64,000 bases of DNA from Yarrowia lipolytica (lineage: Eukaryota > Ascomycota > Dipodascomycetes > Dipodascales). The translations under genes were made by a program, and so were the position numbers. The notes beneath the pieces were generated by a model. That model worked only from the letters and a program-made list of their open reading frames with translations. It searched no databases and was not told the origin of the DNA. Below are positions 57,756 to 63,886 of the stretch, in pieces (within the stretch, counting starts at the first letter, position 1; every line of letters begins with the position of its first letter). The stretch is from contig NC_090775.1 of NCBI RefSeq assembly GCF_001761485.1, forward strand, positions 3,107,001 through 3,171,000. The letters are read 5' to 3'.

Positions 57756-57842
57756 CTCCGCAACGGAGAATTGAACTCCGGTCCCCCGCGTGCTGAACAA
57801 TGTTCTGACAGGCGGAAATTCTAGCCACTAAACTATTGCGGA
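57756..57842 (-). tRNA. tRNA-Asp(GUC) with intron
   Basis: 87 bp. Acceptor TCCGCAA/TTGCGGA pairs perfectly with discriminator G. The D-arm is GTTTAGTGGCTAGAAT, the T-arm CGGAG-TTCAATT-CTCCG. Anticodon stem TCCGC/GCGGG with loop CTGTCAC after removing about 15 bases (GAACATTGTTCAGCA) that follow position 37; the anticodon is GTC. The intron contains a GAAC/GTTC mini-hairpin. No CCA is encoded, and a T6 run follows. No 5S rRNA gene is fused downstream. Confidence 0.92.
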
Positions 57843-59510: not shown

Positions 59511-60296
59511 TTAGATGAGGAGGGCGGCGGCAACAACACCACCGATGGCAAGAGCGCCGTTGACGTAGGCCAGAGAGCCGGAGTTCTTCTCCTCGGTAGC
59601 GGAGGCAGAAGCAGCGGCAGAAGAAGCAGCAGAAGAGGCAGCAGCGGAGGTGGCAGAAGCAGAGCCGGAGGCAGCAGAGGACTTGGAGTCAGTCTTGGAT
59701 GCGGAGGCGGAACCGGAGCCAGAAGAACCGTGGGCGTGGCCAGAGGAGTTACCGGAGCCCTGGGTGTTCTCGGCGAGAGAGCCTGCGTTGGCGTTGGAAA
59801 TAGCCTCAGCGGAAACACCGGTAGAGTTCTTGCAGACGGCGTTGAAAGCGTCAACAGAGTTATCAACCTCGAAATCAATGCAATTGTACAGGTTACCGTC
59901 AACAGCCTGCATGATGACCTGAATGGTTCCCTTCTGGCCGTCCTTGAGATCGCCAAGAGGCAGACCAGGCATGCAGAAGTTTCCAGCACCAAGCTCGTTA
60001 ATGGGGCCGTAAAGCACCTTACTGAAGTCCTTCTGGCCATCAGATCCAGACTTGGTACCACAGTCGTCACCAAGACAGAGTCGGTACTCAGTGATGGCGG
60101 AGGTGTGAGAGGTCTTGAGTAGGACATCTACGGACTTTCCGTTGACCTTGAATCGCTCACCGATCTTGTTCAGACCACCGCAGGGGCCCTGGGTCTGAGT
60201 GGGGTGAGAGTCACCTCTCCATCCGGGGTAGTAGACGGTGAAGTGGGCGTTAGCTGTGGCCAGGAGAGTGGCAAGGGCGAGGGCTGAGAGCTGCAT
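59511..60296 (-). CDS. GPI-anchored Bim1/X325-type copper-binding surface protein
   Basis: 261 residues. Signal peptide 1-17 (MQLSALALATLLATANA) gives a mature N-terminal histidine, H18 in HFTVYYPGWRGDS, as in the LPMO-like X325/Bim1 family where the terminal His helps bind copper. A second His (LLKTSHTS) and nearby Asp residues (LCLGDDCG) are candidate ligands. The domain (18-185) has six Cys (QGPCGG, RLCLGDDCG with two, NFCMPG, YNCIDF, AVCKN). A Ser/Ala-rich stalk follows, and a hydrophobic tail (ALAIGGVVAAALLI) fits a GPI signal. In Cryptococcus, Bim1 aids copper import with Ctr1. Here it lies beside a Ctr transporter and a metal reductase. A TATATATA box lies about 60 bp upstream. Start ATG 60296. 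Family assignment is strong; function is inferred. Confidence 0.88.
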   Translation of the reverse strand: MQLSALALATLLATANAHFTVYYPGWRGDSHPTQTQGPCGGLNKIGERFKVNGKSVDVLLKTSHTSAITEYRLCLGDDCGTKSGSDGQKDFSKVLYGPINELGAGNFCMPGLPLGDLKDGQKGTIQVIMQAVDGNLYNCIDFEVDNSVDAFNAVCKNSTGVSAEAISNANAGSLAENTQGSGNSSGHAHGSSGSGSASASKTDSKSSAASGSASATSAAASSAASSAAASASATEEKNSGSLAYVNGALAIGGVVAAALLI

Positions 60297-60314
60297 TGTG
60301 TTGGGTGAGTGATG

Positions 60315-60321
60315 GAGCAAA
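60315..60321 (-). promoter_or_regulatory. TTTGCTC element (CuRE-like)
   Basis: gagcaaa on the plus strand, about 20 bp upstream of the Bim1-like ATG; likely inside the 5' UTR, so perhaps not functional. Confidence 0.35.
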
Positions 60322-60673
60322 GAGTGTCTGGCTATTTTCGATACGAACACACGTCTATATATAGTAAAGGAGTTACATCATGTCACGGAGGTGACGGGGT
60401 AGGCTTCCGAGCGTATATGCTCTGCGACGCATAAGGTTTTTGTCAACAAGCTAATGTAAGATAAGGTTGCTAGCCGTGAGATGTGATAAACAATAGCGTG
60501 TGGTTTAACCGGTGTATCTGAACCTAGTCTTGTGGGTGGTCAGTATGGGGGGGGTCGATAGAAATCAATTGGCCACGTGACCAAAAGTGCATCATTTAAG
60601 CGACACTAAATAGGCGTCTTTTCGTCCGTTCTAAGCCGCTCCTTTACCCTCAGCTTCTAACAGCTCCACCAAC

Positions 60674-60680
60674 GAGCAAA
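60674..60680 (-). promoter_or_regulatory. ATTTGCTCG element (CuRE-like)
   Basis: Minus-strand AATTTGCTCGTT, about 380 bp upstream of the Bim1-like ATG. Core matches the TTTGCTC of yeast Mac1 and related copper sensors. Confidence 0.6.
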
Positions 60681-60957
60681 TTTATGCAGAGGTGCGCATT
60701 TTGAAAAAAGCCTATTTGAACATCACCCAATGAAGCTCTTGAGGATGTGGAGATGAACAGCTTGAGAGAAGCAATTGGCTGTTGCACGCTGGGGGACTGT
60801 GTGGAGGCGACCGCGATCTGCATTCGTATTGAAAAAAATGGGGTGACTTACAGGTTTCGCACGTTTGTTGGTGTGTCGAAGTTACTCGTTTGTACCTACA
60901 GGGGTCATAATCATCAATTCATTATAAGTTAGGTGCAACGTCAAGTGAACCAGAAGC

Positions 60958-60964
60958 GAGCAAA
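60958..60964 (-). promoter_or_regulatory. ATTTGCTCG element (CuRE-like)
   Basis: Minus-strand ATATTTGCTCGC, about 660 bp upstream of the Bim1-like ATG. Confidence 0.55.
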
Positions 60965-61072
60965 TATATCGGTATAATACACTCCGTTATCGCTCGTGCA
61001 TGGATTATTCATCTTGACTCACAAACGAGCAAGTTCTCGCTTATGCGCAGGTGTGCAATAATATCCTCTTAA

Positions 61073-61079
61073 TTTGCTC
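61073..61079 (+). promoter_or_regulatory. TTTGCTCA element (CuRE-like)
   Basis: Exact TTTGCTCA on the plus strand, the full yeast Mac1-type consensus; paired with another copy 35 bp away at 61108. Confidence 0.6.
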
Positions 61080-61107
61080 AGTGCAAGAGTCGTGACAGGG
61101 CTCTGAA

Positions 61108-61114
61108 TTTGCTC
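61108..61114 (+). promoter_or_regulatory. ATTTGCTCG element (CuRE-like)
   Basis: Plus-strand GAATTTGCTCGTAT, 35 bp from the 61073 copy, forming a direct pair as often seen for Mac1-type sites. Confidence 0.6.
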
Positions 61115-61129
61115 GTATCTGCTCACTCT

Positions 61130-61726
61130 CTAGCTTGCGTAACGGGCAAACAGCAGCTCTCCGAGGAAGATGCCGCCGAGAACCGACACAAAGTAGCCCA
61201 CGTTGTAGGTCATGGTGATAAGCATGAGCAAGTAACCCACGCCGGAGAGCACCGTCTGAATGGCTGCTCGAGGAACGTCCACGGAAAGTCTCCAGGGACG
61301 AGGACCTTGTCGAGTAGTCATTGTGGGCGCAGGAGAGGGCTGGTCGGGACGCTCGAGCTTCTGAAGTCGTTCCTGCTCCTCCTCCTCATCGAGCTCATCC
61401 TCGATATCTCGCAGACTCTTGTAGGGCTGGTCTCGGCCGATGTCGTTCAGAGCCACCACCTGCTTGTTGAGCTTGCCACACTTGATGAGCTTCTCGTCCA
61501 GCTTGAACTTCACCACAAACAGACCTCGATAGATCATGGCAAAAAACACAATGAAAATACACGTTCCCGCGTACTGGCCTCGGTTGGAGGGAGTCCATTG
61601 ATCTGAAAACAGAGCGTCCACCATGTTGGAGTGGAAAGTCATGGCCATGCTGTGGGACATTCCTCCGGACGACGAGCCGCCCATGTCCATGCCGCCCATA
61701 TCCATGCTTCCGTGGTCGTGGCTCAT
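61130..61726 (-). CDS. Ctr-family copper transporter
   Basis: 198 residues. A Met/His-rich N-terminus (MSHDHGSMDMGGMDMGG, then GGMSHSMAMTFHSN) binds Cu(I). TM1 lies at about 53-72, followed by a charged cytosolic loop (about 73-148) with an acidic coil (DIEDELDEEEEQERLQKL). TM2 carries the essential M-x3-M (M168-M172, MLITM), and TM3 has the packing motif G-x3-G (G185-G189, GGIFLG). Ctr trimers move Cu(I) inward across plasma or vacuolar membranes. Length and the loop fit Ctr2/Ctr-type fungal transporters; plasma membrane versus vacuole is not clear. ATG at 61724-61726. It is divergent to the reductase gene across a 270-bp promoter that carries two TTTGCTC sites. Confidence 0.92.
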   Translation of the reverse strand: MSHDHGSMDMGGMDMGGSSSGGMSHSMAMTFHSNMVDALFSDQWTPSNRGQYAGTCIFIVFFAMIYRGLFVVKFKLDEKLIKCGKLNKQVVALNDIGRDQPYKSLRDIEDELDEEEEQERLQKLERPDQPSPAPTMTTRQGPRPWRLSVDVPRAAIQTVLSGVGYLLMLITMTYNVGYFVSVLGGIFLGELLFARYAS

Positions 61727-61819
61727 TTTTGTGTGTGAGAAATGGTGTTGGAGTTGAATAAAAAAGAGATGGAAATACTGGAATTATGAGCTGCTGATGT
61801 CTCTTTTTTGAGTTTGATA

Positions 61820-61826
61820 TTTGCTC
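61820..61826 (+). promoter_or_regulatory. ATTTGCTCG element (CuRE-like)
   Basis: ATATTTGCTCGTTT, 94 bp from the transporter ATG and 170 bp from the reductase ATG. Confidence 0.65.
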
Positions 61827-61902
61827 GTTTCAGCTGGAAAATCTGAGTCTATGTGCGAATAGATTTATACTATTACTAGCTAGCGGAACACTATGCATCT
61901 TT

Positions 61903-61909
61903 GAGCAAA
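61903..61909 (-). promoter_or_regulatory. TTTGCTCA element (CuRE-like)
   Basis: Minus-strand GTTTGCTCAAA, 88 bp upstream of the reductase ATG; full TTTGCTCA core. Confidence 0.65.
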
Positions 61910-61996
61910 CTGTAAAGAGTGTGTGGTATCGGAGTCCTTACGACCAGCTCCAGGAGGTTCCTATTCTCAGCAAACTCCCTCGAAGTCACTCACAAC

Positions 61997-63886
61997 ATGG
62001 TCTACGACATTCTGGCCACCGCCAAAAACCAGGGACAGGGCTCATACAACTCGGACGGATCTCCAAGACCAGGGTTTCTGGGAAGAGTTTACTGGATGGT
62101 CATTGGTGCCATTTTGGCAGTAATTACCATTTTCCGCGTGCTTTCGTTACTGCGACAAAAGTACTACTTGAAACGACAAAAGCCACCCAGATCAGACTCT
62201 GTTCCAGCCAAGATCATTGGAGCTATCGTATCTACAGCTCGTGAGGCCTCTCTATTACAGATCCCAGGGTTTGATATTCCTTGGGTCAATTACACGGTGG
62301 AGTTCCCGCCAGTAGGAGACATTCTCATCATTCTCTTTTACGTGATGATTGTAATGCTGCTGCTCTTCTCCAAAATCGACCCTTTCAACCCTATGAACTA
62401 CGAAACTGTGGCCTACCGATGCGGCTGGGTGTCTATTTCCCAGATCTCACTTATCGTCATTCTGGCAGCCAGAAGAAACCTCGTGTCCATTCTCACGGGC
62501 ATTTCTGCTCAGAGGCTTAACCTGTACCATCGATGGACGGCCCGAGTGTTGTTCCTGTGCGTCATTCTGCACCTGGCCCACTTTATCAAGACCTGGGGAG
62601 TCACTCACCAGATTCAGAACCAGGTGTCGACAAATACGTTTGCCCTGAAAGGCTTTGGAGCGTTTGGAATTCTCTGCTGGATCTTCATTTCCTCTTTTGC
62701 GCCCTTCCGAAACATGAGCTACGAGTTCTTTGTGTTCCAACACATTGTTACTATGATTGGATTCATGGTAGCAGTCGTTATCCACGCGCCCAATTACGCA
62801 TACCATGTCGTAATCCCTCCTCTGGCTCTTTTTGGACTTGACAGAGTGCTCAGACTGGTCTGGAACCTGTTCATCAATAAGGCAGGGCTCAAACCTCATC
62901 AGACAGCCCTGAGAGTCGAGCCTGGAGCTGTGGTGGCCACAATTCCCACAGGACTCTCATGGTACCCTGGACAGCACATGTATCTCCGTTTCCCTAACGT
63001 ATCTCCTTTAGAACAGCATCCTTTCACAATTTCCACACTGCCCGGAGACGATATGCAGTTTGTGATTCGTTCAAAGGCGGGATTCACTAAGCGGCTGCTC
63101 AAAAAGGCCTCTCAGCTCCCAGAACACGAGAAAATGACCCTTCCAGTCTACCTGGACGGTCCCTACGGCGAAACTCGTGATTTCAAGCAGTTTGACACCT
63201 CTGTTTTTGTCTGTGCCGGTATCGGAGCTTCTTTCTGCCTCCCTATCGCCGTGGACATTATTAGAAACCAGCACAAGACCATTGCTCGACGTCTCAAGTT
63301 CATCTGGATCACAAAGCGGTTCCAGGACATGGAACTGTATGCCGCCCAGCTGACTGAGCTGCTTGAATGCGCACGAACGTTCTACGATACAGCCTCTGGA
63401 ATCGATGTTGTTGTCGAGATCTTCGCGACTTGTGAAGATGACTGCTGTGGGGCTGTCACTAACTGCTCTAGTTGTTGTTGTGACGAGGTGGCTGTTTCTC
63501 GGGGCGAATGTTGCTGTGCAGCTGGTATCGAGCCCCAGCCGAAAAACGAACTTACACAAGCCCAGACTGCACTTGCTCAATCATCAACGCTTTCTCCGGT
63601 ATACTACGACTTCGTTGAGGCCGGGTACCTGCGTCTCAAGCAGGGACGACCCCAGCCTTATCAGTATAACCGACGAAAGAAGCTTGGATCTGACAAGTCC
63701 TTCTACCGGCTCATTTCGCCGGTCATTTCTATGGCTCAGGGTGAGTCTGGAGTGTGCATTTGTGGCCCTAGACGGTTTACGAGAATTGTTTCCAACACTG
63801 TTGTTGACATCACCGACGACAGGGCAGTTCTGAGAGGTACAGGTAACCAGGCCGTGTACACACACGTGGAGCATTTTGGGTTGTAG
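61997..63886 (+). CDS. Ferric/cupric reductase, FRE family, with cysteine-rich segment
   Basis: 629 residues. Membrane flavocytochrome that moves electrons from NADPH via FAD and two hemes to external Fe(III) or Cu(II). The bis-heme His pairs are spaced as in the family: H178/H192 and H249/H263. The FAD-binding motif is HPFTIS (from H341), followed by GPYGE (388-392) and the NADPH-site VCAGIGASF (about 405-413). A segment at 479-507 has ten Cys in 29 residues (TCEDDCCGAVTN, CSSCCCDEVA, GECCCAAG) inside the NADPH domain, resembling a metallothionein-like insert. The C-terminal CICGPRRF block is present. The start is ATG 61997; the upstream frame has no other ATG. It shares its promoter with the copper transporter. 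No N-terminal signal peptide; TM1 is at about 30-50. Confidence 0.92.
   Translation: MVYDILATAKNQGQGSYNSDGSPRPGFLGRVYWMVIGAILAVITIFRVLSLLRQKYYLKRQKPPRSDSVPAKIIGAIVSTAREASLLQIPGFDIPWVNYTVEFPPVGDILIILFYVMIVMLLLFSKIDPFNPMNYETVAYRCGWVSISQISLIVILAARRNLVSILTGISAQRLNLYHRWTARVLFLCVILHLAHFIKTWGVTHQIQNQVSTNTFALKGFGAFGILCWIFISSFAPFRNMSYEFFVFQHIVTMIGFMVAVVIHAPNYAYHVVIPPLALFGLDRVLRLVWNLFINKAGLKPHQTALRVEPGAVVATIPTGLSWYPGQHMYLRFPNVSPLEQHPFTISTLPGDDMQFVIRSKAGFTKRLLKKASQLPEHEKMTLPVYLDGPYGETRDFKQFDTSVFVCAGIGASFCLPIAVDIIRNQHKTIARRLKFIWITKRFQDMELYAAQLTELLECARTFYDTASGIDVVVEIFATCEDDCCGAVTNCSSCCCDEVAVSRGECCCAAGIEPQPKNELTQAQTALAQSSTLSPVYYDFVEAGYLRLKQGRPQPYQYNRRKKLGSDKSFYRLISPVISMAQGESGVCICGPRRFTRIVSNTVVDITDDRAVLRGTGNQAVYTHVEHFGL
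63430..63520 (+). other. Cysteine-rich coding segment within reductase
   Basis: Ten Cys codons in 29 residues. The spacing CC, C, CCC, CCC could hold Cu(I) or other soft metal. Confidence 0.8.

Follow-up and report, generated by a model that had tools for sequence, protein, structure and literature searches.

Copper-uptake genes and repeated elements in the window

We analysed a 64-kb stretch of Yarrowia lipolytica DNA, called the window throughout (G000:C6:3107001-3171000), against a genome of 20.5 Mb in 6 contigs. Copies of the heptamer TTTGCTC surround genes for a BIM1-like protein, a CTR copper transporter (CTR-A) and a FRE-type metalloreductase, three copper-uptake families that Pfam assignments place side by side. 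The genes, intergenic regions and elements are given below in window coordinates.

59511..60296, minus strand: gene for a BIM1-like, putatively secreted copper binder, 261 aa; PF20238 over cut-off
60297..61129: the 833 bp separating the BIM1-like ATG from the CTR stop codon; contains TTTGCTC five times, four times as ATTTGCTC
60315..60321, minus strand: TTTGCTC copy lacking both flanks (A and R), 19 bp ahead of the BIM1-like ATG
60673..60681, minus strand: ATTTGCTCG element, 378 bp before the BIM1-like ATG
60957..60965, minus strand: ATTTGCTCG element, 662 bp before the BIM1-like ATG
61072..61080, plus strand: ATTTGCTCA element, 777 bp before the BIM1-like ATG, 51 bp beyond the CTR stop codon
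61107..61115, plus strand: ATTTGCTCG element, 812 bp before the BIM1-like ATG, 16 bp beyond the CTR stop codon
61130..61726, minus strand: gene for the CTR copper transporter CTR-A, 198 aa; PF04145 over cut-off, Met/His-rich N-terminus
61727..61996: divergent CTR/FRE promoter, 270 bp, with two elements (61820, 61903)
61819..61827, plus strand: divergent-promoter ATTTGCTCG element; CTR ATG 94 bp away, FRE ATG 171 bp away
61903..61910, minus strand: divergent-promoter TTTGCTC copy (GTTTGCTCA); CTR ATG 177 bp away, FRE ATG 88 bp away
61997..63886, plus strand: gene for a FRE-type metalloreductase, 629 aa; PF01794, PF08022 and PF08030 over cut-off

Judged by eye, the BIM1-like protein has an apparent signal peptide followed by a His, a Ser/Ala-rich tail and a hydrophobic, GPI-like C-terminus. 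In an alignment with the solved chain 6ibh (E 1.5e-7), which we take to be LaX325, this His falls at the N-terminal His of that chain. The copper site of the BIM1/X325 family consists of a His brace and an Asp (PMC7529816). Orthologs of the BIM1-like protein are present in Yarrowia sp. C11 and B02, and its AlphaFold model is of low confidence (mean pLDDT 49). A second BIM1-like protein in the genome (L036:1294-2034, G000:C5:2323566-2327018) has no His at the mature N-terminus position of the alignment and is perhaps not the same kind of copper binder; ATTTGCTCG was not found within 2.5 kb upstream of its gene (BIM1-B). The metalloreductase contains Ferric_reduct, FAD and NAD domains over cut-off, and a PDB sequence search with CTR-A returned one match (E 0.056). 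The window also holds a tRNA gene at 57756-57842 on the minus strand (Rfam, 48 bits), missed by ARAGORN with bacterial settings; ARAGORN gave no useful result on the window and three further loci.

The preliminary description had reported seven exact TTTGCTC copies, four of them sharing the 9-mer ATTTGCTCG, where about 0.2 copies would be expected in 1.6 kb. All seven are present, at 60315(-), 60674(-), 60958(-), 61073(+), 61108(+), 61820(+) and 61903(-), the 9-mer starts at 60673, 60957, 61107 and 61819, and the genome rate gives an expectation of 0.25. The classical Mac1 octamer TTTGCTCA accounts for two of the seven copies (61073 and 61903), TTTGCTCG for four and TTTGCTCC for one, and the TTTGCTC core occurs in more than one copy per promoter. 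The elements at 61072 and 61107 lie 35 bp apart on the same strand. We did not count the copy at 60315 as an element, given its missing flanks and its position just before the ATG; it presumably lies in the BIM1-like leader and is probably incidental. Two near matches, TCTGCTCAC at 61118 and TTGCTCG at 61026-61032 (minus strand), were noticed by eye.

Distribution of the elements across the genome

TTTGCTC has no overall excess in the genome, since its 3213 copies compare with 3412 for the reversed word used as a control. Seven of the ten copies in the window fall in the cluster, and the remaining 62.4 kb contains 3 against 9.8 predicted from the genome rate. Seven copies in 1595 bp correspond to a local Poisson P of 9.7e-9. 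Since it was as a cluster that this stretch drew attention, the genome-wide number is the fairer one: 0.001 such clusters are expected per genome. For four copies of ATTTGCTCG within 1146 bp the expectation is 1.5e-5 per genome, and in 20000 simulated genomes four copies never fell within 1150 bp, a span in which about one chance pair is expected per genome.

The 9-mer had been put forward as a species-specific consensus. It is indeed enriched (151 copies against 80 for the reversed control) but proves too narrow. ATTTGCTCA is enriched to about the same degree (212 against 102), and counts of ATTTGCTC by the bases that follow (GY 93 against 35, AY 120 against 51, AR 92 against 51, GR 58 against 45) place the largest excess before a pyrimidine. 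ATTTGCTCRY, with 213 occurrences against 86 for its reversed control, fits better, and we suggest a consensus of about this form with the core TGCTC. In a k-mer count of the pooled BIM1, CTR/FRE and CTR-B promoters (CTR-B is the second CTR gene, described below), which contains the window cluster itself, TTTGCTC, ATTTGCTC and ATTTGCTCG come top among 7-, 8- and 9-mers. With the window left out, TTTGCTC leads the 811 7-mers and ATTTGCTC the 854 8-mers of the CTR-B and Mn-SOD promoters, a ranking in which Mn-SOD is not independent because the gene was found through the motif. The CTR-B promoter alone ranks TTTGCTC first of 554 7-mers and ATTTGCTC fifth of 575 8-mers.

Enrichment at copper-gene promoters, the check suggested in the preliminary description, holds for clustered copies of the 9-mer. 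At least two copies of ATTTGCTCG within 1 kb occur at four loci in the genome. Two of these are at CTR genes (the cluster described above and CTR-B); the others lie upstream of a DnaJ gene (L054) and in a coding stretch (L055). Single copies are scattered, with 12 of the 30 examined (151 in total) inside ORFs of at least 150 aa, and a single ATTTGCTCG was rejected as a marker of copper genes. ATTTGCTCG is absent within 2.5 kb upstream of all 14 other FRE-family genes, the starts of which were approximated by domain start for all but L048. That gene (L048:505-2359, G000:C6:2431218-2434556) has TTTGCTC 162 and 277 bp before its ATG and is the only one of the 14 with TTTGCTC upstream, in stretches that cover the promoters in part; the FRE-family gene at C2:1455208 has ATTTGCTCAT 1957 bp before its domain start. 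ATTTGCTCG is neither necessary nor sufficient.

A genome-wide cluster scan with ATTTGCTCR covered 343 of 363 sites, taking in 100 of the 120 ATTTGCTCAY copies (on contig C6, those up to 445 kb). Adjacent sites within 600 bp number 17 pairs against 3.4 expected, and these form 13 clusters, some of which are coding repeats. The window's cluster, CTR-B and a Fe/Mn superoxide dismutase gene are among them. The other ten, nine of them inspected in sequence and the tenth known by its position (C3:2221887/2221896), have no evident copper-uptake or Mn-SOD gene. Set aside were clusters inside an ORF (L055), inside a long ORF (L063), in repetitive reading frames (L058), upstream of the DnaJ gene (L054), upstream of phosphoglucomutase (L062), at a K+ transporter (L066), and in coding sequence or without an evident copper link (L059/L065 and L061/L064).

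CTR-B (C3:2839639, plus strand) is one of three CTR matches found in the genome by family search. It carries ATTTGCTCG 76 and 586 bp upstream and TTTTTTGCTCACA about 535 bp upstream; the 590 bp before the gene contain two ATTTGCTCG and one TTTGCTCA, and two ATTTGCTCG in 600 bp have a P of about 1e-5. ATTTGCTCG is absent within 2.5 kb upstream of the third gene, CTR-C. We equate CTR-B with YALI1_C28396g, described as similar to CTR1 (PMC9966917), because locus-tag numbers follow coordinates, a convention checked on SOD1, whose tag in that paper (YALI1_E14988g) maps to C5:1498416-1498826. In Table 3 of that paper, a selected list obtained at the high dose of 1 mM CuSO4, the transcript of this gene as mapped by coordinate changes by log2 -9.551 at day 5 relative to no copper, a drop of about 750-fold, and by -5.962 at day 6, and it rises by log2 3.589 from day 5 to day 6 in copper (PMC9966917). 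The available part of the paper does not name the window's three genes, whose tags, judged by coordinates, would be near YALI1_F31673g, F31687g and F31690g; in the literature consulted, CTR-B is the one Yarrowia gene considered here with published copper data.

The Fe/Mn superoxide dismutase gene found by the scan (Mn-SOD; L060:453-1846, G000:C3:2372800-2376400; PF00081 and PF02777) has three ATTTGCTC at 15, 149 and 263 bp upstream, the nearest recalling the position of the 60315 copy in the window. Three TTTGCTC in 300 bp give a P of 1.7e-5 before allowing for the search. The gene has one intron and its protein starts MSYVLPPLPYAYD, the first exon and intron having been read by eye; no mitochondrial targeting sequence is evident to the eye at the N-terminus, and its PDB relatives are Fe/Mn-type dismutases. 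Mn-Sod3 belongs to the low-copper genes of Candida albicans, and its promoter, like those of CTR1, FRE7 and FRE30, contains a Mac1 motif (PMC7248230); Mac1 of Fusarium oxysporum binds at sod3 (PMC11563359). The Yarrowia Mn-SOD is, on its upstream elements, a likely member of the same regulon. The Cu/Zn gene SOD1 (L056, C5) has one ATTTGCTCAT about 780 bp upstream and two further TTTGCTC; its C. albicans counterpart is repressed, not induced, under low copper (PMC7248230).

Two further loci were noted. One (L067:1966-3500, G000:C4:2116500-2121000) encodes a secreted protein of about 300 aa that consists largely of His-Asp repeats, a possible cell-wall metal binder, and has ATTTGCTCA and ATTTGCTCG upstream. 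At the other (L057:1769-2166, G000:C4:923300-927300), five copies of TTTGCTC lie beyond the 3' end of a multicopper oxidase gene. Three of the five have the form ATTTGCTCR and sit together in about 50 bp. An F-box ORF follows after about 1.2 kb, with no ORF or gene recognised in between. Both clusters are suggestive.

Candidate regulators and interpretation of the elements

Two copper-fist genes are present in the genome, one on C5 (458 aa) and one on C2 (411 aa). The C5 protein (L031, G000:C5:3740563-3741939) is of Mac1 type and has an N-terminal copper fist with RGHR and GRP; Yarrowia sp. C11 and B02 have orthologs that carry the name Metal-binding activator 1. Across an alignment of 11 sequences, RGHR and GRP are kept together with a C-terminal Cys motif (five Cys, one His), which in the Yarrowia proteins reads CxCx3CxCx2CxxH; a second such motif was not recognised in these proteins. 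The C2 protein (C2:1089162) is apparently of the high-copper Ace1/CRF1 type and is presumably the published CRF1. The Cys motif of the C5 protein resembles the REP motifs described for Mac1, which are dispensable in Aspergillus (PMC6354809). Autoregulation of the C5 gene is possible, since ATTTGCTCAC lies in its own upstream region, 333 bp before the ATG (L031:1952, G000:C5:3742272).

We consider it highly probable that these repeats serve a Mac1-type copper-fist activator as its copper-response elements, in essence as the preliminary description had proposed. In favour are the clustering, the gene families that the copies surround, the k-mer ranking, the recurrence at CTR-B and Mn-SOD and the presence of a Mac1-type factor, together with the published fall of the CTR-B transcript in copper and the Mac1 targets of F. 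oxysporum and C. albicans. Because the switches recur at a second CTR gene and at the gene of a copper-sparing enzyme, they are in all likelihood genuine; their kind is already known. Counted against the proposal are the last base of ATTTGCTCG, which departs from the classical TTTGCTCA, the ten ATTTGCTCR clusters away from evident copper-uptake or Mn-SOD genes, the lack of ATTTGCTCG before CTR-C, BIM1-B and the 14 other FRE-family genes, the ATTTGCTCAT at SOD1, and the renewed rise of CTR-B from day 5 to day 6 in copper. The factor responsible is probably the 458-aa C5 protein.

Real copper elements might instead be read by the C2 protein, or by both factors. Both proteins have copper-fist domains that exceed the Pfam cut-off, and TCTGCTC[A/G], suggested for the high-copper factor of Histoplasma (PMC9040751), finds a counterpart by eye in TCTGCTCAC at 61118. 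We nevertheless regard a role for the C2 protein as unlikely, because CTR-B is repressed rather than induced by copper (PMC9966917) and the genes marked by the elements are those of uptake and copper sparing. Less likely still is a different regulator or response (iron, pH or morphology) acting through the elements, with the copper genes as co-targets. The genome-wide excess of ATTTGCTCRY exceeds the needs of a small copper regulon and an iron response is frequent among FRE genes; on the other side, half of the four loci with paired ATTTGCTCG lie at CTR genes, and the word matches the Mac1 core (PMC11563359). A chance cluster of a common word we discount almost entirely, for although TTTGCTC is no commoner than its reversed control and chance pairs of ATTTGCTCG do occur, the expected cluster numbers given above are minute and the elements recur at CTR-B and Mn-SOD.

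Under the Mac1-type reading, scarcity of copper would lead the C5 factor to bind the elements, several of which stand close together, and to switch on the three neighbouring genes. The metalloreductase would reduce Cu2+ to Cu+, CTR-A would import the Cu+, and the BIM1-like protein would bind copper at the cell surface. CTR-A and the metalloreductase would be driven from their common 270-bp divergent promoter with its two elements, and the BIM1-like gene would be served by the four elements upstream of it, of which two lie just beyond the CTR stop codon. With ample copper the factor would fall silent. Factor binding, the response of the three window genes to copper and the identity of the active elements are all inferred.

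A more speculative reading, which we consider rather unlikely, is that this linked copper-acquisition island of binder, reductase and importer, with common elements of a shifted and often G-ending consensus, belongs to a low-copper regulon in which the His/Asp-rich protein and something beside the multicopper oxidase gene might add a cell-wall copper-trapping layer. We know of no such layer in described Mac1 regulons.

Relation to known copper regulons

The analysis puts forward a low-copper regulon open to testing, along with a likely regulator, in a yeast of wide biotechnology use. The compact divergent CTR/FRE promoter should be copper-repressible, and a BIM1-like protein encoded beside CTR and FRE under common elements makes a working partnership of the three testable in a laboratory yeast that is harmless. 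No paper on this Yarrowia cluster was found in the literature searched, which leaves most subscription journals outside; work on copper-responsive Yarrowia promoters reportedly exists and may include CTR genes.

The elements share their core with the Mac1 elements (TTTGCTCA) of CTR1, FRE7 and SOD3 in Saccharomyces cerevisiae and C. albicans, and the target functions (transporter, reductase and Mn-SOD) are the same, with a Mac1-type factor in the genome. They differ in that four of the seven copies end in G (ATTTGCTCG), and the Yarrowia sites are predicted. Mac1 of F. oxysporum binds divergent ctr/fre pairs and sod3 with the consensus DHNTGCTCANNN (PMC11563359). The divergent ctr3/fre9 and ctr1b/fre12 pairs resemble the Yarrowia CTR/FRE pair in having a common promoter with several sites, whereas the Fusarium consensus ends in A, unlike the G-ending Yarrowia form, and the available part of the paper mentions no BIM1-like gene in the regulon (PMC11563359).

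In Pseudogymnoascus destructans and Cryptococcus, the low-copper genes comprise the same trio of functions as in Yarrowia (CTR, FRE and BIM1/CBI1), and in Pseudogymnoascus copper limitation induces BIM1-like, CTR and FRE genes together (PMC12113139). In the available part of that paper, the locus tags of BIM1-like and CTR genes are separate and unlinked, in contrast to the Yarrowia cluster, and Cryptococcus is described there with the single factor Cuf1 (PMC12113139), whereas Yarrowia has two copper-fist genes. Divergent CTR/FRE pairs under Mac1 in Fusarium, together with the co-induction in Pseudogymnoascus, make this a kind of system already known; what is added here is the linkage of the trio, the G-ending form of the element and the species.
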